Positions 124 through 21,432 of a stretch of DNA of 33,446 nucleotides are shown one piece after another (positions within the stretch are counted from its first letter, which is position 1; each line of letters begins with the position of its first letter). The notes below the pieces were generated by a model. The model made no database searches and was not told the DNA's origin. It saw only the letters and a list, made by a program, of their open reading frames with translations. This stretch comes from a virus, in the IMG/VR virus record IMGVR_UViG_3300006802_000058, positions 1 to 33,446 of that record. One strand, 5' to 3'. The translations under genes and the position numbers were made by a program.

Positions 124-3100
124 GAAGGCCGCTAGTGATTCCAAGACCTCCGCAGATCAGATAGCTAAGTCGCTGAATATCGACGCTGTAGTCGATACAG
201 ATGGTGCTAAGCAAAGCCTCAAGAGCCTCGAGAATGTAGCCGAAACAACAGGCAAGAACGCGGCCTCGTCGCTGTCGGATTCTTTCAAGGGCGCGTTTTC
301 TGGTGGTCTTGTCGGAGGTATTGCTGCCCAATTAGGTGGCGTTCTTCAACAGGGACTATCTGATGCCATAGCCGCAGGCTCCAATTTTGAGACTGCCCTG
401 CAGTCCGTCTCAGCTGTCACAGGTGTAACTGGTGACGGCTTGAACGACCTCGGAGAGCGCGCTAAGAACTTGGCCTCTCAATTTGGAGGCAGTGCAACGA
501 CACAACTGGAATCTTTCCAGACTATCCTTTCGAAGTTCGGCCCTGATCTTGCCAAGACTCCCGAAGCTCTTGGTAGTGTTTCAGAGTCTGTAAATTTGCT
601 CGCCAAAGCCGCGGGCCTAGATGCCAAACAGTCCGTAGATGCCCTGTCTAATGCCATGCTACAGTTTGGTGTCGATGCCAGTGATCCAGCACGACTTGCG
701 CAGGAATCTGGACGCTTTATTAACGTCCTCGCTGCATCTGCGAAGGTGGGTGCCGCTGAAGTGCCACAGGTTGCAGAGGCTATCCTGCAGGCAGGTGTCG
801 CTGCTAAGGGTGCGAATCTATCCTTTGAAGAAACAAATGCTGCTATTCAGGCACTCGCCGTGGGTGGTAAGGTAGGATCAGAGGCTGGCATCTCCTTGCG
901 AAACGTCATAGGTCTACTTATTAAGCAGGGTGGGCCTGGTGAGGAGGCACTTAAAAAAGTCGGACTATCTGCACAGGAACTGGGGAAGACACTTACAACA
1001 CAGGGCCTGTCTGCAGCACTTGAAAAACTACAGAGTGGTGTCAATAAGCTAGGAAGTGATGCCGAAAAGGCCGCGTTCAAGGCGACGCTCTTCGGTACTG
1101 AAAACGCCTCGGCAGCTGGTATTCTCCTCAATAGCGTCGATACAATCAAGGAATACACTGCAGGCGTTACGGGAACTTCGGAAGCTCTTACACAGGCTGC
1201 CACAAATAGCGACACCATAGCCGCACGTTTTGATAAGTTCAAGGCTGCCATCGAGGTGGGTCTTATAAATGCGTTCCAGACACTTGCACCTATTGTGAAG
1301 GCTGTATTCGATAACTTCGATGTTATAGGCCCAATCTTACTTACGGCTGCTGCCGCTGTCGGTGCTTATGTGCTTGCTACAAATGCCGCCGCAATAGGTC
1401 AGGGGATAGCCTCGGCAGCTACTGCTGCATGGAATGCAGTTCTTGCGTTGAATCCAATTGGTTTAATTGCTGTTGGTGTTGTCGCAGCTACAGCTGGTAT
1501 CATAGCCCTTGCTGATGCGATGAGCATATCGGCAGAAGAGGCTCGTGATAATGCCGAGGCTGAAAAGAAACTTGTCGAACAACAGATCCAAGGCAACAAA
1601 GAACGGCAGACGACGGTAAAACAGACGAAATCACTTGCTGAGCAGTTCAAGGAATTAGCGAGCAAGACGCAACGGACTGCAGAAGAGGACAAGAAACTTC
1701 AGCAAATACAGGGCAAACTTGATGAGCAATACCCTGAACTTATCGATCAGACCAAGACATTTTCAGAGAACCTCGATGGTGTCCAGAAAATATCTAAACT
1801 GACCACCAACGAACTGAACAAATTAGGTGATGAAGCTATTGGTCTGCAGGAAAAACTAAAAAATGCAAATAGGATTTTGCTTGCTACGCAACGCGATGTT
1901 GCTTTAGAAGATTTCAAAGATGTTTTTGAGGATTTATTAGGAAATGTCGATGAATTCGCTATTGATTTCGCGAACCGTTTATATGGTGTAAAGACTCAAA
2001 AGCAAGCCCAGGAATTACAAAGCGCTTTCGCTGATTATGCCAATCTCAACATTAAAAATCAACGTGACCGACTAGATGGTATTACGAAGTTTAACGCGGC
2101 ACTTCAGGCACAACTGAAGGCCTTGGGTAAAATCGAGGAAACACAAACTGCGATCAACAACCCACCACCAGTGAAGCCACCACCTGTTGTGCCACCACCC
2201 GATGGTAAAGAAACCTCACAATACAAAGCAGCCAAGAAAGCACTTGATGCCTACATCGACAGCCAGAAGACAGCACGCAAAGAGTTTGAGCTAACGCTGG
2301 CACGACGTGAGGCAGCTGGTGAGGCTGTTAATATCAAGTTTGAACTTGAAAAGTTCGACATCGGGCAGCTACAGGATCGCATAGCAAAAGCTCAGGATTT
2401 GCTTAGAATTGAACTTGGCAAAGATGGGCTTCCTATTGATACAAAACTTCGGCTGTTGAAGGATGAGTCAAAACAGGCGATTCTCGATGACTTTAGAGAT
2501 CTTCAAATTGACGCCGAACTCAAGGGCCTAAAACTCAAGGGCCCTGCACAGGTTGAGATTAGTGAGGTCAATCTTGTACGCAAGGGGCCTGTTGATCTTA
2601 CCAAGGCTCTCGGCCGTCAGGCTGCCCTGCTGCAGCTTACAGCGCAAGAGTTAGCGATCAAACCCACACTAGATGAGACAGCGTTCAAAACATTTGGTGA
2701 GAATGCTACTCAAGCCATCACCAAAATCGATTGGAATAAAGTCTTCTCACGTCCTGCCAAGGCCAGTGAGGAAGCAACGAAGAAAATCGTCGACAGTATA
2801 TCTGAAGGGACGCTATCATACCAAGATGGCGTAGATAAATTGTCGGAGTCTATCGAGAAGGTCCCGACGATTTTTGAAGCTGTGAGGATGCAGCTCAATG
2901 AAACATTTAAGGCCTTGACTCAAGAGACTACAAACGCACTCGGAACAGCAGCAGCGGGGGCAAAATCTTTCGGCGATGTATACGACGAGCTTGCAAATGT
3001 CGCAGGTGCTGCATTTGCACAGCTAATAACAGAACAGAGTGAATTTGGCAAGTCGTTTCTGTTAATTGCACTCGATACTTTGGACGCACTCGTGCCTATC

Positions 3101-3589
3101 TTAGTGGCTCAAATTACTGGTTTCTCGCTCGCATCTGCTGAGTCGGTAGCTTCTGCTGGAACGCTTGGTCTTATCAAGGCCGCAGCACTCACAGCATTAC
3201 TCAAGGCCATCGTCGCTGCAGCACGTGCAGGCGTTCAGGGCTTCTCTGAAGGTGGTTATACTGGCAACGGTGGCAAGTACCAACCTGCAGGTGTCGTTCA
3301 CAAGGGTGAGTTCGTCATCAACAAGGAAAACACCAGCAAGTTCAGAGGCATCCTTGAACAGATGAATCAAGGCAAGCTGCCACTGACGATGAACGCAAGC
3401 ATAGCCAACCCAGAGATTCAGAGTGAGATGTACGGCATGAGGCAGGAACTGGCTGCAATACGTCAGCGCCTCGACAGGATGCCGGACGGAATTCAGGGAC
3501 GCATGAACGTCGGTCTCGACGTAGGTCTTGATACCTATCTTTTCAGACGTGATAACTACAGGGCCGCAGTCGCCGGCCTGAGAGGATAA
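65..3589 (+). CDS. Tail tape measure protein
   Basis: This 1174-aa protein sets tail length and is expected to leave the tail tube during DNA injection. It has an alanine/serine-rich helical N-terminal half, hydrophobic stretches around residues 415-475 that could insert into membrane, a charged coiled-coil-like middle, a proline-rich linker near residues 700-715 (PPPVKPPPVVPPP), and a C-terminus with the GGYTGNGG...GEFVINKE signature common in TP901-type tape measures. At roughly 1.5 angstrom per residue the tail would be about 175 nm. It is the longest ORF and lies directly downstream of the two-part chaperone, the classic position. The ATG shares a base with the upstream stop (TAATG), implying coupled translation. 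Family assignment is very secure. Confidence 0.96.
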   Translation: MAVFKNELQLDTSSFSSSLKKAASDSKTSADQIAKSLNIDAVVDTDGAKQSLKSLENVAETTGKNAASSLSDSFKGAFSGGLVGGIAAQLGGVLQQGLSDAIAAGSNFETALQSVSAVTGVTGDGLNDLGERAKNLASQFGGSATTQLESFQTILSKFGPDLAKTPEALGSVSESVNLLAKAAGLDAKQSVDALSNAMLQFGVDASDPARLAQESGRFINVLAASAKVGAAEVPQVAEAILQAGVAAKGANLSFEETNAAIQALAVGGKVGSEAGISLRNVIGLLIKQGGPGEEALKKVGLSAQELGKTLTTQGLSAALEKLQSGVNKLGSDAEKAAFKATLFGTENASAAGILLNSVDTIKEYTAGVTGTSEALTQAATNSDTIAARFDKFKAAIEVGLINAFQTLAPIVKAVFDNFDVIGPILLTAAAAVGAYVLATNAAAIGQGIASAATAAWNAVLALNPIGLIAVGVVAATAGIIALADAMSISAEEARDNAEAEKKLVEQQIQGNKERQTTVKQTKSLAEQFKELASKTQRTAEEDKKLQQIQGKLDEQYPELIDQTKTFSENLDGVQKISKLTTNELNKLGDEAIGLQEKLKNANRILLATQRDVALEDFKDVFEDLLGNVDEFAIDFANRLYGVKTQKQAQELQSAFADYANLNIKNQRDRLDGITKFNAALQAQLKALGKIEETQTAINNPPPVKPPPVVPPPDGKETSQYKAAKKALDAYIDSQKTARKEFELTLARREAAGEAVNIKFELEKFDIGQLQDRIAKAQDLLRIELGKDGLPIDTKLRLLKDESKQAILDDFRDLQIDAELKGLKLKGPAQVEISEVNLVRKGPVDLTKALGRQAALLQLTAQELAIKPTLDETAFKTFGENATQAITKIDWNKVFSRPAKASEEATKKIVDSISEGTLSYQDGVDKLSESIEKVPTIFEAVRMQLNETFKALTQETTNALGTAAAGAKSFGDVYDELANVAGAAFAQLITEQSEFGKSFLLIALDTLDALVPILVAQITGFSLASAESVASAGTLGLIKAAALTALLKAIVAAARAGVQGFSEGGYTGNGGKYQPAGVVHKGEFVINKENTSKFRGILEQMNQGKLPLTMNASIANPEIQSEMYGMRQELAAIRQRLDRMPDGIQGRMNVGLDVGLDTYLFRRDNYRAAVAGLRG

Positions 3590-16219: not shown

Positions 16220-16600
16220 GTGAATCTTACACCATCACAAGAGGCAGAACTAAAACGTCGCGCCCGTGCTATGCTAGGCTGGACAGCTCTGTCCAGGTGG
16301 TGCTCTGTTCTTCTCGGTCGTGACGTGCCAGTGTCTGAACTAAAGTCCGACTATGGTCTTATGATTGAGAACGAACGTAACGACGTAAGGTTCAACCTAG
16401 CACAGACACAGATCGAGAAGGCGCTATCAGGGGACAACACGATGCTGATCTGGTTAGGCAAGCAACACCTTGCACAGACGGACAAGGCAGCCACGGAAGT
16501 GTCAGGCAAGACCGATATACGGATCGTGCTGGCTCCAACACATGAAGAACCAAAGCAGATCGAGGACGCAGAGATTATAGCCATCGGGCCTAAACAATGA
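16220..16600 (+). CDS. Terminase small subunit-like protein
   Basis: A GTG start at 16220 gives 126 aa. The N-terminal 55 residues are helical and basic, as for a DNA-recognition domain (AELKRRARAMLGWTALSRWC). The C-terminal part has DNTMLIWLGKQHLAQTDKA, a segment frequent in phage small terminases, and then GKTDIRIVLAP. The protein would recognise packaging sites and hand DNA to the large subunit, whose gene starts within its stop codon (ATGA). The ribosome site is weak (AAGGA well upstream), and the adjacent DnaA box might influence expression. Assignment rests on the segment pattern and position. Confidence 0.75.
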   Translation: MNLTPSQEAELKRRARAMLGWTALSRWCSVLLGRDVPVSELKSDYGLMIENERNDVRFNLAQTQIEKALSGDNTMLIWLGKQHLAQTDKAATEVSGKTDIRIVLAPTHEEPKQIEDAEIIAIGPKQ

Positions 16601-17769
16601 TAACTATTGACGCACAACTACATGACGGCCAGAAGCTCATCCTGCGGAACAGGCGACGCTTCAACACCGTGGCATGTGGTCGTCGCTTTGGTAAGACTGT
16701 TATGGCAGAAGCCCTGCTCATTGAGTCTGCTATCATGGGCAGGCCGTGTGCTTACTTCGCACCAACGTATAAGATGCTATCGGATGTTTGGAAAGCGCTG
16801 AAGACAACGCTGCAGCCTATCATTACAAGTGTAAGTGAACAGGAGAAGAGGCTTACCATCGAGACGGGTGGTGTGATCGACTGCTGGTCATTAGATGCCT
16901 ATGACAGCGTGCGAGGTCGTAAGTACGCACGGGTGGTATGTGATGAGGTGGCGATGGTTAGGAACTTCATGGACGCCTGGAACGAGGCGATCCGACCAAC
17001 GCTAACAGATTACAAGGGCGACGGCTATTTCTTCTCGACACCGAAGGGCCGTAATGATTTCCACGCTATCTACGAACGTGCTAGGTTAGACGAGACTTAT
17101 GCGTCCTTTCGGATGCCTACCAGTGTGAATCCTTATATAGCACAAGACGAGATCGAGGCGGCACGTCGCGAACCGCCGACGGTTGTGTTTAATCAGGAAT
17201 ACCTAGCCGAGTTCGTGGACGTGCAGGGCGCTTTGGTGAAACGTGAGATGATAACGTATGTAAACAGCGACCAGGTGCCTAGGGATCTCAAGATCGGGAT
17301 GGGTGTAGACTTAGCGATCTCCAAATCAGACACGGCAGACTACACTGCCATCGCTGTTGTGGGCTATGACAAGGATTCAGGCCGTAGGTATGTGCTAGAC
17401 ATGTGGCGTGGTAAGGTGGGATTCCATGAGGTAGTCCAAGGCGTGCAGAGCCTAGCGAGCAAGTGGAACCCGTCACGGATCAACATCGAGGCCGTCCAAT
17501 ATCAGGTCGCTGTCGTGCAGGAACTACTCCGCAAGACATCCTTACCTGTCAAGGCTGTCAAGCCAGACCGTGATAAGGTAACACGCTTCCACGGCTTACT
17601 GGCAAGGTATGAGCAGCTGCTGGTCACACACGTGCGCGGGCTGGATCCATCATTCGAACAGGAACTACTTTCTTTCCCTGAGGGCAACCACGACGATATG
17701 GTGGATGCTCTCGTATACGCTGAGATGGCGGCTGTAAAGTCGCAAGGTGCTGGGGTGGTATTTTTATGA
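16597..17769 (+). CDS. terL: Terminase large subunit
   Basis: This 390-aa packaging motor has an N-terminal ATPase with Walker A GRRFGKT (28-34), Walker B VVCDE (113-117) and coupling motif FFSTPKG (145-151). The C-terminal RNase H-like nuclease has VDLA with D238, INIEAV with E298, and HDDMVDA with D366, D367 and D370. It pumps DNA through the portal and cuts concatemers. The protein is somewhat shorter than the usual 420-550 aa but complete in motifs. It overlaps both neighbours by ATGA. The cutting mode (headful versus cos) is not evident; the circular assembly fits either circular permutation or cohesive ends. Confidence 0.96.
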   Translation: MITIDAQLHDGQKLILRNRRRFNTVACGRRFGKTVMAEALLIESAIMGRPCAYFAPTYKMLSDVWKALKTTLQPIITSVSEQEKRLTIETGGVIDCWSLDAYDSVRGRKYARVVCDEVAMVRNFMDAWNEAIRPTLTDYKGDGYFFSTPKGRNDFHAIYERARLDETYASFRMPTSVNPYIAQDEIEAARREPPTVVFNQEYLAEFVDVQGALVKREMITYVNSDQVPRDLKIGMGVDLAISKSDTADYTAIAVVGYDKDSGRRYVLDMWRGKVGFHEVVQGVQSLASKWNPSRINIEAVQYQVAVVQELLRKTSLPVKAVKPDRDKVTRFHGLLARYEQLLVTHVRGLDPSFEQELLSFPEGNHDDMVDALVYAEMAAVKSQGAGVVFL

Positions 17770-18821
17770 GACACGGAAGTTTATTTTCAGGCATAGGTGG
17801 TTTCGACCTTGCTGCGGAGTGGATGGGATGGAGTAATGTATTCCATTGTGAATGGGCAGAATTCCCACGTAAGATATTGCACCATTACTGGCCGAATGCG
17901 ATAAGTTACCACGATGTTACACAAACGGAGTTCACAGCACATGCCGACCAAATCGACATCCTTACAGGCGGGTTCCCTTGTCAGCCGTACAGCGCGGCAG
18001 GCAAGCGCAAAGGGAAAGACGATGATCGTCACCTCTGGCCCCACATGCTACGAGCTATTCGAGAAATCAGACCTCGCTGCGTCGTGGGCGAAAATGTTTT
18101 CGGGCTTACTACTTGGAACGGGGGCGTGGTACTCGAAGAGGTGTCTGCTGAGCTGGAAGCTGAAGGTTACGCCGTACAACCGTTTATTATTCCAGCTGCA
18201 GCCGTCGGGGCTCCCCACAGAAGAGACAGGATCTGGATTGTTGCGTACTCCGTCAGCACAGGAACCAGGCATCAAGAACACCCGTCTTGTAACCAAGACT
18301 GGGGAACCTGCGGAAATAGGGAAAAGAGCTTACGACAAACACACGGGACGCCTAGCGCAAGTGGGGCTAACGCAACAAGTGCAAATGATGCGTTTGCTCC
18401 CTACTCCGAAAGCCTCGGATTTGGAAAGGGGCAACAGGAAGCTGGACGAGAACGGGCTGAACGTCAACAGCAAGGGAGTCAGGTACGGTGCAGCTCTGCC
18501 ACAACTAGCCAAGAGTGGATTGCTACCGACACCGACATGCATGGATGCAACGAATGCAACGGCAACGATGAAGTCTACACAGGTCAAGGAAGGCAGCATG
18601 CACAGCGTGACGCTAAGCAGGCAGATAAGCAGGACTTCTGGTACAACTTCCCAACTCAACCCCCTGTTTGTGGCGGAGATGATGGGATTCCCACCGAACT
18701 GGACGGTATTACCATTCCAAAGTGGCGAAGAGAAAGCATAAAGGGCTACGGGAACGCAATCGTTCCACAGGTAGCATTTCAAATTTTCCAAGCAATAGAA
18801 CAATATGAGCTTACTAACTAG
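17766..18821 (+). CDS. DNA (cytosine-5) methyltransferase
   Basis: This 351-aa enzyme transfers a methyl group from S-adenosylmethionine to cytosine C5. Motif I is LFSGIGGFD (6-14), motif IV GGFPCQPYSAAGK with catalytic C72, motif VI GENV (108-111), motif VIII GAPHRRDRIWIVA (148-160), and motifs IX-X end in GYGNAIVPQVA near 327-337. The target-recognition region (about 160-300) has repeated A-Y/D-S/T-x...G units (VAYSVSTG, APYSESLG, ATDTDMHG). It probably protects phage DNA from host restriction. No partner restriction enzyme is visible. A second ORF (18022-18741) lies entirely inside it in another frame. It overlaps terL (ATGA) and the portal gene start. Confidence 0.95.
   Translation: MRHGSLFSGIGGFDLAAEWMGWSNVFHCEWAEFPRKILHHYWPNAISYHDVTQTEFTAHADQIDILTGGFPCQPYSAAGKRKGKDDDRHLWPHMLRAIREIRPRCVVGENVFGLTTWNGGVVLEEVSAELEAEGYAVQPFIIPAAAVGAPHRRDRIWIVAYSVSTGTRHQEHPSCNQDWGTCGNREKSLRQTHGTPSASGANATSANDAFAPYSESLGFGKGQQEAGRERAERQQQGSQVRCSSATTSQEWIATDTDMHGCNECNGNDEVYTGQGRQHAQRDAKQADKQDFWYNFPTQPPVCGGDDGIPTELDGITIPKWRRESIKGYGNAIVPQVAFQIFQAIEQYELTN
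18022..18741 (+). CDS. Out-of-frame ORF nested in the methyltransferase gene (probable dual coding)
   Basis: A 239-codon frame runs from ATG 18022, six bases after AGGGAAAGACG, to TAA 18741, wholly inside the C5 methyltransferase gene in a different frame. The product is not shadow-like: it has CYELFEKSDLAASWAKMFSG, then WYSKRCLLSWKLK and NRLLFQLQPS. Three spaced units follow, LLRTPSAQ (73), LLPTPKASD (125) and LLPTPTCMD (167). The end is LNPLFVAEMMGFPPNWT. I recall very similar database proteins next to phage methyltransferases. Each LLxTP unit is encoded by the same DNA as an A-Y/D-S/T unit in the methyltransferase. An in-frame extension to 17914 lacks a ribosome site. Function unknown; possibly a partner in target recognition. 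Confidence 0.6.
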   Translation: MIVTSGPTCYELFEKSDLAASWAKMFSGLLLGTGAWYSKRCLLSWKLKVTPYNRLLFQLQPSGLPTEETGSGLLRTPSAQEPGIKNTRLVTKTGEPAEIGKRAYDKHTGRLAQVGLTQQVQMMRLLPTPKASDLERGNRKLDENGLNVNSKGVRYGAALPQLAKSGLLPTPTCMDATNATATMKSTQVKEGSMHSVTLSRQISRTSGTTSQLNPLFVAEMMGFPPNWTVLPFQSGEEKA

Positions 18822-21432
18822 AATAAAACAGTATATCTCACCATCGGGCGAGGTTGCACAGAACGACCTTCCTATGCCGCTCGAGGAGGTATGGACAAAG
18901 CACAGCTTCACACCAATAGTCAACTGGTCTGGAGCTTACAAGATGTGGAAGGCTAATCCTGTAGCACAGGCCTGCACTATCACGTACTCACTCATGATGC
19001 CCGAGGCACAGCTCGGTGTGGTCACTCCATCAGGTTACAGCTATGACGACCCTATCGTCACCATGCTCACACGTAACCAGTGGCGAGTGACTATGTCAGA
19101 GATCATGACCATCCTGTGCATCGGTGGCAATGCCTACGGCTACAAGCTGCGCAATGCCTCGGGTGCTGTGATAGGTATCAGGTGGTATTCAGATAAGCAT
19201 TTCGCGCCTGTGAATGATGGATGGGGTGATGTCGATTATTATCACTACTACAACGGTGCTGTAACCTACTCCGTACCGAAGGAAGACGTCGTGCACATCG
19301 TGGGCTTCTGGTACGACCCCGAGAAGCCACTTGGTGGCGGCTCGCCTGTCGAGCTTGCTGCGCAGTCTATTGAGGGCTACAACGAAGCCAGTGCCACGGT
19401 GTTCAACATCCACAAGAACGACGCCATGCCCAAGACCATCGTGGTCTACGATGAGGAGCTGACACCAGAGCAGGTAAGCCTTGCCGAGCGTTCGTTCAAG
19501 CGCAAATATGGTGGAGACCGTCGCGGTTCCGTTGGTATCATGTGGGGCGTGAAGGACGTCAAGCGCCTAGCCCTCGACTGGAACGAGCTCGGTCTATCTG
19601 ACACGTTCGGTCAGTACGAGACCCGTATCTGCGGTGCTTACAAGGTGCACCCTATTATCGCAGGGACTCATATGGGTCTGTCACAGAGTACCTACAGCAA
19701 TTTCGAGCAGGCCTCTAAAGACTACACAAACATGGTGCGTGTTCCATTCTGGAATATGCTCGCTGACCAGATCAATGCACAGCTCGCCATCCCTGACTAT
19801 GGTGTCGAGATCGGTTTCGACCTGTCCACAGTTCAGGCACTTGCTGGTGATGCTATTGCGACCGAGGCCGTGTCGACTCAAGATGCAAATGTGAACGGTG
19901 ACAACTCCAGCGACGGAGGCGCTGTGCCTGTTGAGGCGCGTGGCTTTCGTGGTATCTCAACAAAAATCAGGAGTGGAGAGGAAGCCGTAATCGTAGACAT
20001 CGACGATACACTGCTTACGAGCACAGGCAACCCAAAGCAGAACGTCATCGACTACGTCAATGCCAAGCACGCTGAGTACATGATACACATCGTGACCGGT
20101 CGCATGATTGACGACCGTGACCGCACTGTACGAGAGCTCGAGGATGCTGGCGTCAAATACGACGAGCTGCACCTTAACGACACAACAGCGCCCACGATAG
20201 TCTGGAAAGAATACAAAGCCAAGAAAATACAGGAGATGCATCCTGTAGATTTGGCTATTGACAATGACGAAGAGACCCGTGCCATGTACCGCAGCCTTGG
20301 TATTGATACGCTGAATCCATCAGACATACCAGAGATCGATAGCAAGCAATATGAAGGCATAGACTTTCTACCACCCAAGGGCGTCCGTGATGAGGCAGCC
20401 AAGGGCCTCGAGTGGCGTCGTGAGTATAACAGAGGCGGCACGGCTGTAGGTGTTGCCAGAGCTCGAGACCTCAGCAATGGACGTGCTATCTCGCCAGATA
20501 CGGCGAGGCGCATGAACAGTTACTTTGCACGGCACGAGGTCGACAAGCAGGGCGAAGGGTGGTCACCAGGTCAGGAGGGATTTCCTTCTGCTGGTCGCAT
20601 TGCATGGGCTCTGTGGGGTGGTGATGCTGGTCAGCGCTGGAGTGCCAAGCTAGTCGAGCAGATGAATGCTGAAGACGAGCAGAAGGCGCTGTTCAAGAGC
20701 GACGTGAAGTCATGGCTGCAACATCCAGACTCGCATGTTTATAGCAAGCAGTACGACGAGGCACTGAAGCCTTACGATGACCGCATAGCAAAATCATGGT
20801 CGATGGTAGCGATGGAGCTCGCCACCTACCTACGTGATACCAAATCGGCATGGGCTGTAGAAACAAAAGCCGAGGACTTCAGCGAGGACTTTTGGACTGA
20901 GAAGTTCCTGCGGGAAACCGAGACGGACAGGGAGGAGCTTGTCGAGCTGGTCATCAAGTTAGCCCAGGAGGAAGTGGACGCAGAGCCTGGAGACTTTGCC
21001 AAAGCTCGTGAGGCTGGAATCATTGAGTCATCTAACAAGATATCCGACAGCGTCCCAACACTCCGTGCGGACGTGCAAAAGGTTGTTCTCGAGAACCCTG
21101 GTATATCAGATGAGGAACTGAGCAAACTGCTATTCGACAAGGTCAAGGGCATCAGTCAGGCCCGAGCCAACATGATCGCACGCACGACGGTAACAGCTAC
21201 AACAGGTGCAACACAAAAATCGGTCTGGGATGAATTGGGTGGAATCCGCAGGTCATGGGCAGCCTTGGCAGGGGCACGGGCTGCGCACGCTGCAGCACAT
21301 GACAGTTTAGAGGACGACAACGGGCTATTCACAGTAGGCGGTGAACAGACACCATACCCTGCAGGCGATGGCCTCAGCGCTGCAAACTCCGTCAACTGCC
21401 GATGTTTCGCACGTGCTCGCAGGGCCGTGTGA
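18805..21432 (+). CDS. Portal protein fused to HAD phosphatase, GGTAVGVARAR module and MuF-like domain
   Basis: This 875-aa protein is about twice normal portal length. Residues 1-350 are an HK97-type portal (YKMWKANPVAQACTITYS, then LCIGGNAYGYKLR, and GLSQSTYSNFEQA near 291). Residues 394-505 are a complete HAD phosphatase: DIDDT 398-402, TGR 431-433, a lysine-rich motif III near 464-474 and DNDEET 486-491. Residues 528-615 carry the phage module RREYNRGGTAVGVARARDL...ARRMNSYFARHE...GRIAWALWGGDAG. Residues 765-875 are MuF-like (QARANMIARTTVTATTGATQ...NSVNCRCFAR). The portal ring would display 12 copies of each domain at the capsid vertex. The frame is continuous with no weak stop. The start overlaps the methyltransferase end by 17 bases. 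Confidence 0.85.
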   Translation: MSLLTRIKQYISPSGEVAQNDLPMPLEEVWTKHSFTPIVNWSGAYKMWKANPVAQACTITYSLMMPEAQLGVVTPSGYSYDDPIVTMLTRNQWRVTMSEIMTILCIGGNAYGYKLRNASGAVIGIRWYSDKHFAPVNDGWGDVDYYHYYNGAVTYSVPKEDVVHIVGFWYDPEKPLGGGSPVELAAQSIEGYNEASATVFNIHKNDAMPKTIVVYDEELTPEQVSLAERSFKRKYGGDRRGSVGIMWGVKDVKRLALDWNELGLSDTFGQYETRICGAYKVHPIIAGTHMGLSQSTYSNFEQASKDYTNMVRVPFWNMLADQINAQLAIPDYGVEIGFDLSTVQALAGDAIATEAVSTQDANVNGDNSSDGGAVPVEARGFRGISTKIRSGEEAVIVDIDDTLLTSTGNPKQNVIDYVNAKHAEYMIHIVTGRMIDDRDRTVRELEDAGVKYDELHLNDTTAPTIVWKEYKAKKIQEMHPVDLAIDNDEETRAMYRSLGIDTLNPSDIPEIDSKQYEGIDFLPPKGVRDEAAKGLEWRREYNRGGTAVGVARARDLSNGRAISPDTARRMNSYFARHEVDKQGEGWSPGQEGFPSAGRIAWALWGGDAGQRWSAKLVEQMNAEDEQKALFKSDVKSWLQHPDSHVYSKQYDEALKPYDDRIAKSWSMVAMELATYLRDTKSAWAVETKAEDFSEDFWTEKFLRETETDREELVELVIKLAQEEVDAEPGDFAKAREAGIIESSNKISDSVPTLRADVQKVVLENPGISDEELSKLLFDKVKGISQARANMIARTTVTATTGATQKSVWDELGGIRRSWAALAGARAAHAAAHDSLEDDNGLFTVGGEQTPYPAGDGLSAANSVNCRCFARARRAV

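Follow-up and report, generated by a model that had tools for sequence, protein, structure and literature searches.

The window, the whole stretch of DNA analysed here, is a 33.4-kb phage contig. It carries an open reading frame (ORF) for a DNA methyltransferase (MTase) at 17766-18821, with the gene for the terminase large subunit (16597-17769) before it and the portal protein gene (18805-21432) after it. The portal ORF displays an unusual fusion of its own, with an internal match to a polynucleotide kinase profile (residues 386-516, phrog_415) and a C-terminal head-morphogenesis domain. No restriction enzyme was found among the ten window proteins that were scanned. The MTase chain, here called alpha, is a C5-cytosine methyltransferase of 351 residues; it matches PF00145 (E 5e-42), phrog_363 (E 4e-72) and also, by profile, M.HhaI and M.HaeIII, and its frame is under selection (see below). 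Motifs I-VIII, including PCQ and ENV, are present with their invariant residues in alignment A2. The catalytic PCQ (motif IV, 17976-17984) is invariant in that alignment, and motif X (GNAIVPQ, 18750-18770) is kept. Motif IX is absent from the alpha chain, which reads GIPTELDG at the corresponding place. These features, like those of the second frame described next, lie on the plus strand.

A second frame, +1 relative to the MTase and wholly within 17766-18821, is open from 17914 (its first ATG) to 18741. The protein proposed to be translated from it, beta, would comprise 239 residues (18022-18741); this assignment draws on a match to phrog_1008, on the openness of the frame and on purifying selection. 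A preliminary description of the window had already pointed to a 239-codon ORF inside the MTase gene, and it is indeed found there, with a possible ribosome site (AGGGA, 18011-18015) located 6 nt before the ATG at 18022. Beta can be subdivided into an N-terminal domain of about 70 residues (18022-18237), which lies over alpha motifs V-VIII where both frames are constrained, three predicted target-recognition cassettes and a putative motif IX. Cassette 1 (LLRTPSAQEP..., 18238-18393) was assigned from cassette families and selection, cassette 2 (LLPTPKASDLERGN..., 18394-18519) has relatives of the same family in first and middle slots, and cassette 3 (LLPTPTCMDATNATATMKSTQVKEGSMHSVTL..., 18520-18654) was recognized from its sequence. 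The LLxTP units at 18238, 18394 and 18520 overlie the MTase codons for AYSVS, PYSES and TDTDM; the coincidence of three repeat units in the two frames, as first described, is thus borne out by the coordinates. The same applies to the end of the nested frame, LNPLFVAEMMGFPPNWT (18655-18705), which starts at 18655 over the MTase-frame PPVCGGDDGIPTELDG and covers the GIPTELDG stretch.

The nested arrangement is widespread. A scan of viral contigs yielded 488 relatives of the nested protein, and a set of 245 loci was compiled from viral contigs and further scans, including genomes that are mostly from Bacteroidota. The arrangement recurs in hundreds of loci from phages or genomes of Bacteroidota, Bacillota, Pseudomonadota and Actinomycetota. 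In 243 of the 245 loci the nested frame is open and lies +1 inside an MTase ORF. The two exceptions are L145, where the cassettes are fused to alpha, and L151, where the cassettes, motif IX and motif X form one ORF and alpha was not found on the contig piece. A beta gene clearly separate from methyltransferase motifs was found in none of the 245 loci. The third frame is never open: each of the 70 non-identical loci checked has 10-35 stops in it. When the MTase codons over the overlap were permuted synonymously, the nested frame acquired 4.5 stops per locus and stayed open in only 0.35% of permutations, by which chance openness is rejected. The phrog_1008 profile matches the nested ORF (E 2e-22) and all 69 homologues tested. 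It is labelled 'DNA methyltransferase' in PHROGs; the nested ORF is a member of this family, and the label is silent on the missing catalytic domain and on the overlap with phrog_363.

The constraint on each frame was estimated with an OLGenie-like count, in which substitutions are sorted by their effect per frame, over 31 disjoint locus pairs of 71-96% identity. First-pass figures from all pairs, which are non-independent, agree with those from the disjoint pairs. Upstream of 18022, the nested dNN/dNS is 0.97 (CI 0.74-1.32) and the MTase dNN/dSN is 0.10. The two ratios are 0.47 and 0.15 in the beta N-terminal domain, 0.28 (CI 0.23-0.33) and 1.14 (CI 1.00-1.33) in the cassettes, and 0.12 and 0.24 in the motif IX tail, which is the most constrained part of beta. 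The alpha frame is accordingly constrained outside the cassettes (0.10-0.24) and unconstrained inside them. From these ratios, the upstream stretch codes for the MTase only and the cassettes for the nested protein only, while both pieces that flank the cassettes code for two proteins. In the N-terminal domain and the motif IX tail, purifying selection acts on both frames, so that these stretches are truly dual-coded; for these two parts the earlier proposal of conserved dual coding holds, and for the cassettes, conserved in the nested frame only, it does not.

The same ratios bear on the start of beta. As the nested frame is unconstrained upstream of 18022, an internal start at this ATG fits the comparison, and the in-frame extension at 17914-18021, which overlaps the PCQ motif of alpha, probably lies outside beta. 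From 18022 on, selection in the nested frame is at first weak and becomes firm after about 24 codons. In most loci an ATG is found at the internal start position; in many loci with ACG there, an in-frame TTG is located a few codons upstream, and some loci contain neither an ATG nor an obvious alternative at the presumed site.

The tandem units between motifs VIII and IX, three here and one to six per protein in relatives, have a median length of 39 residues. A total of 618 units was cut from 211 loci, and 410 of them fall into 29 families of five or more, the largest of which joins related units by single linkage. Families were found in first, middle and last slots. The 964 same-family pairs share 69% of their nucleotides; identity of the encoded residues is 76% in the cassette frame, 37% in the MTase frame and 41% in the third frame. 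With random substitutions, 42-43% would be expected, so the MTase frame even falls below this level, and 57% of the changes occur at third positions of the cassette frame. A similarity of the nested frame that is merely forced by the MTase is rejected by these identities and by the selection ratios in the cassettes (0.28 versus 1.14). Since identity is kept in the cassette frame only, the cassettes behave as modules of the nested protein. This argues against the earlier suggestion that the repeats evolve in two proteins at once, which the identities and the ratios refute.

The nested frame carries a motif of the form LNPxFVxEMMGFPxxW in the register and spacing of motif IX of M.HhaI (RKLHPRECARVMGYPDSY). 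In L145 and L330-L338 a motif of this nested type is located in one chain, before motif X. A comparison of motifs IX and X with canonical phage enzymes by hhalign gave nominally significant P values of 0.018 and 0.041 on subsets and 6e-4 when pooled. The conserved tail of beta may thus be read as motif IX, mainly from its position and register, with weak support from hhalign. An AlphaFold model of beta alone reached a pLDDT of 65 and had no match in the PDB; a search of the PDB sequences with a beta profile found nothing either, and neither a solved structure nor a named domain is available for beta. For the single-chain L145, on the other hand, the AlphaFold model aligns with M.HhaI from end to end (E 8e-15, TM 0.62 on the target). 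In this model the catalytic core, the motif IX helix and motif X are confident, and the cassette region is of low confidence. The specific DNA contacts of M.HhaI and M.HaeIII are made by their small domain, which includes motif IX and the variable region lying between it and motif VIII (PMC3404938). By this comparison beta is read as the target-recognition subunit, and its cassettes as putative target-recognition units. For the nested protein, whose function was left blank in the preliminary description, the evidence therefore points to a target-recognition/motif IX subunit of the same enzyme.

Three arrangements can be distinguished among the relatives. Most loci are nested as in the window, including those of the phages K1ind2, PhiXhv-18, XFactor and Diva. 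In L099, L149, L156 and mycobacteriophage Rebeuca (gp80/gp79), the enzyme is split after motif VIII, and the second chain consists of the N-terminal domain, cassettes, motif IX and motif X; in split loci of the L099, L149 and L156 type, the alpha frame contains stops through the cassette region. In L145, MelBins gp5, Silvy gp53 and L330-L338, which include actinophages, everything is found in one chain with the cassettes read in the frame of beta. The order of this chain (catalytic motifs I-VIII, LLPTP cassettes, an LNxxFxEWMMxxP motif IX and a GNGV motif X) is the canonical C5 order. In the PHROG library, MelBins gp5 matches the alpha family over residues 1-492 and the nested family over 258-493 (E 1e-55). 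In some single-chain actinophage enzymes (L321:2141-2575; L330-L334 around 2341-3141), the beta N-terminal domain and one or two cassettes are still found as a separate +1 ORF, from which it follows that the N-terminal domain may act in trans.

Several other loci deviate in ways of their own. In L124 (2213-3145), alpha motifs I-IV continue in one frame into the beta frame and the remaining alpha lies in another frame, which a small indel or a sequencing error would explain. In L325 (1786-2512, Lactococcus phage CHPC974), the annotation divides a C5 methyltransferase with a canonical motif IX into two ORFs that overlap in part; motifs IX and X are on the second (frame +1), in which a clear motif VIII was not seen. 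L049 (2190-2270) and L065 (2980-3060) contain 6-bp insertions (AACTAT and GACCAT) at the same point of the alpha FP^CQ, each creating an in-frame stop while beta is open; repeated inactivation and a recoding signal are both possible. In the Bacteroides loci L221, L223, L234 and L235, a TGA is located at a conserved tryptophan of alpha and beta is intact. The contexts are AAE-TGA-MGW and FSR-TGA-RQAS (e.g. L223, 3799 and 4870), and the TGA is either read as Trp in these prophages or a sign that alpha has decayed.

Two-chain C5 methyltransferases have been described before. The small subunit of M.EcoHK31I, like beta, is reportedly read in a second frame inside the gene for the large one; the overlapping-frame two-subunit layout is therefore probably already known, in principle from one bacterial enzyme. 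M.EcoHK31I (YGGCCR) consists of a large polypeptide with motifs I-VIII, X and a predicted target-recognition domain, and a small one with only motif IX (PMC3404938). In the window, too, the large subunit holds I-VIII and X and the small one motif IX, a likeness in motif content. However, the target-recognition domain of M.EcoHK31I was assigned to the large subunit, whereas the cassettes here, one to six in number, are constrained in the small-subunit frame only. Another two-polypeptide C5 methyltransferase, M.AquI (CYCGRG), is split after motif VIII. It is resembled by L099, L149, L156 and Rebeuca, with motifs IX and X on the second chain, but not by the window, where alpha retains motif X and beta lies entirely within the alpha ORF. 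Tandem units are also known from the multispecific C5 methyltransferases of Bacillus phages (SPR and relatives), which contain several tandem target-recognition domains per enzyme (PMC8936443). The units in beta, if they serve recognition, would be alike in this respect. The SPR-type enzymes differ in being one chain with a canonical motif IX (RRLTPLECFRLQAF), in their other domain sequences and in lacking an overlapping frame. The same nested pair as in the window is present in Paenibacillus phage Diva (gp49/gp50, KP296791), where it has already been annotated ('g49 internal gene') with no function given.

Taken together, the two overlapping frames of the locus very likely specify the two subunits of one phage C5-cytosine DNA methyltransferase, with beta as the predicted DNA-reading subunit. 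Alpha (17766-18821) would contribute the AdoMet-binding and catalytic motifs I-VIII plus motif X. Beta (18022-18741), provided that it is translated, would contribute the N-terminal domain, a row of cassettes of about 40 residues (three here) and motif IX. The two chains would assemble into one enzyme, a heterodimer, in which beta supplies the DNA-reading small domain, and the phage DNA would be methylated at the site or sites read by the cassettes. The beta frame gains, loses and moves its cassettes as modules, and for alpha the same stretch would be no more than a passive linker. Phage methyltransferases usually serve to protect phage DNA from restriction, and the methylation proposed here probably counters host restriction as well. 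Against this reading stand the poor model of beta alone, the low confidence of the cassettes in the single-chain model, the target-recognition domain placed on the large subunit in the M.EcoHK31I literature, the loci with no obvious start for beta and the few with stops in alpha and an open beta.

Other readings of the pair have been considered. As was proposed for M.EcoHK31I, the variable region of alpha could hold the target-recognition domain, with beta a folding partner that gives only motif IX. The assignment in the M.EcoHK31I literature would favor this, as would the strong constraint on motif IX within beta. It is nevertheless improbable. Selection acts on the nested cassettes (0.28) but not on the variable region of alpha (dNN/dSN 1.14), the alpha frame of loci split after motif VIII has stops across the cassettes, and single-chain relatives read the cassettes in the frame of beta.

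Beta might instead act on its own, as a regulator or an anti-restriction protein, and only happen to share DNA with the methyltransferase. Its lack of a solved structure or named domain would allow for this, and so would the N-terminal domain that is still its own +1 ORF in single-chain actinophages. Against it, the cassettes and motif IX are fused in relatives to the catalytic domain at the canonical place between VIII and X, and no beta gene was seen clearly away from methyltransferase motifs in the 245 loci; this reading is regarded as even less probable. Least credible of all is a nested frame that is untranslated, open and similar only through the MTase protein and its codon use. Such forcing does account for the nested similarity upstream of 18022 (dNN/dNS 0.97). 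In the cassettes, on the contrary, the MTase frame is free and varies while the nested protein is kept, and so few of the synonymous permutations remain open that the hypothesis is hardly tenable.

The features that look new are the VIII-IX region being functional in the nested frame, the shuffled multi-cassette build and the wide, mostly unannotated occurrence. No description of this arrangement was found in the literature searched, which is weak evidence of novelty as many journals lie outside its coverage. Long same-strand nested gene pairs are regarded as rare among phages and bacteria. Pipelines often annotate the catalytic half alone: the MTase of five enterobacterial (pro)phage and plasmid loci is annotated as one gene, and the open +1 frame bearing motif IX is omitted. 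An annotated MTase gene expressed by itself may fail, and a prediction of specificity from its variable region would use the wrong frame.

On balance, the loci seem to form an extensive and for the most part unannotated family of C5 methyltransferases in phages and prophages, whose specificity would reside in shuffled, interchangeable cassettes of ~40 residues encoded in the overlapping frame only. Each cassette would read its own site, and recombination would re-target the enzyme while leaving the catalytic chain untouched, with the out-of-frame linker being disposable. The same cassettes occur in same-frame and in overlapping-frame versions, which makes the family a natural experiment on the origin and loss of overlapping genes.
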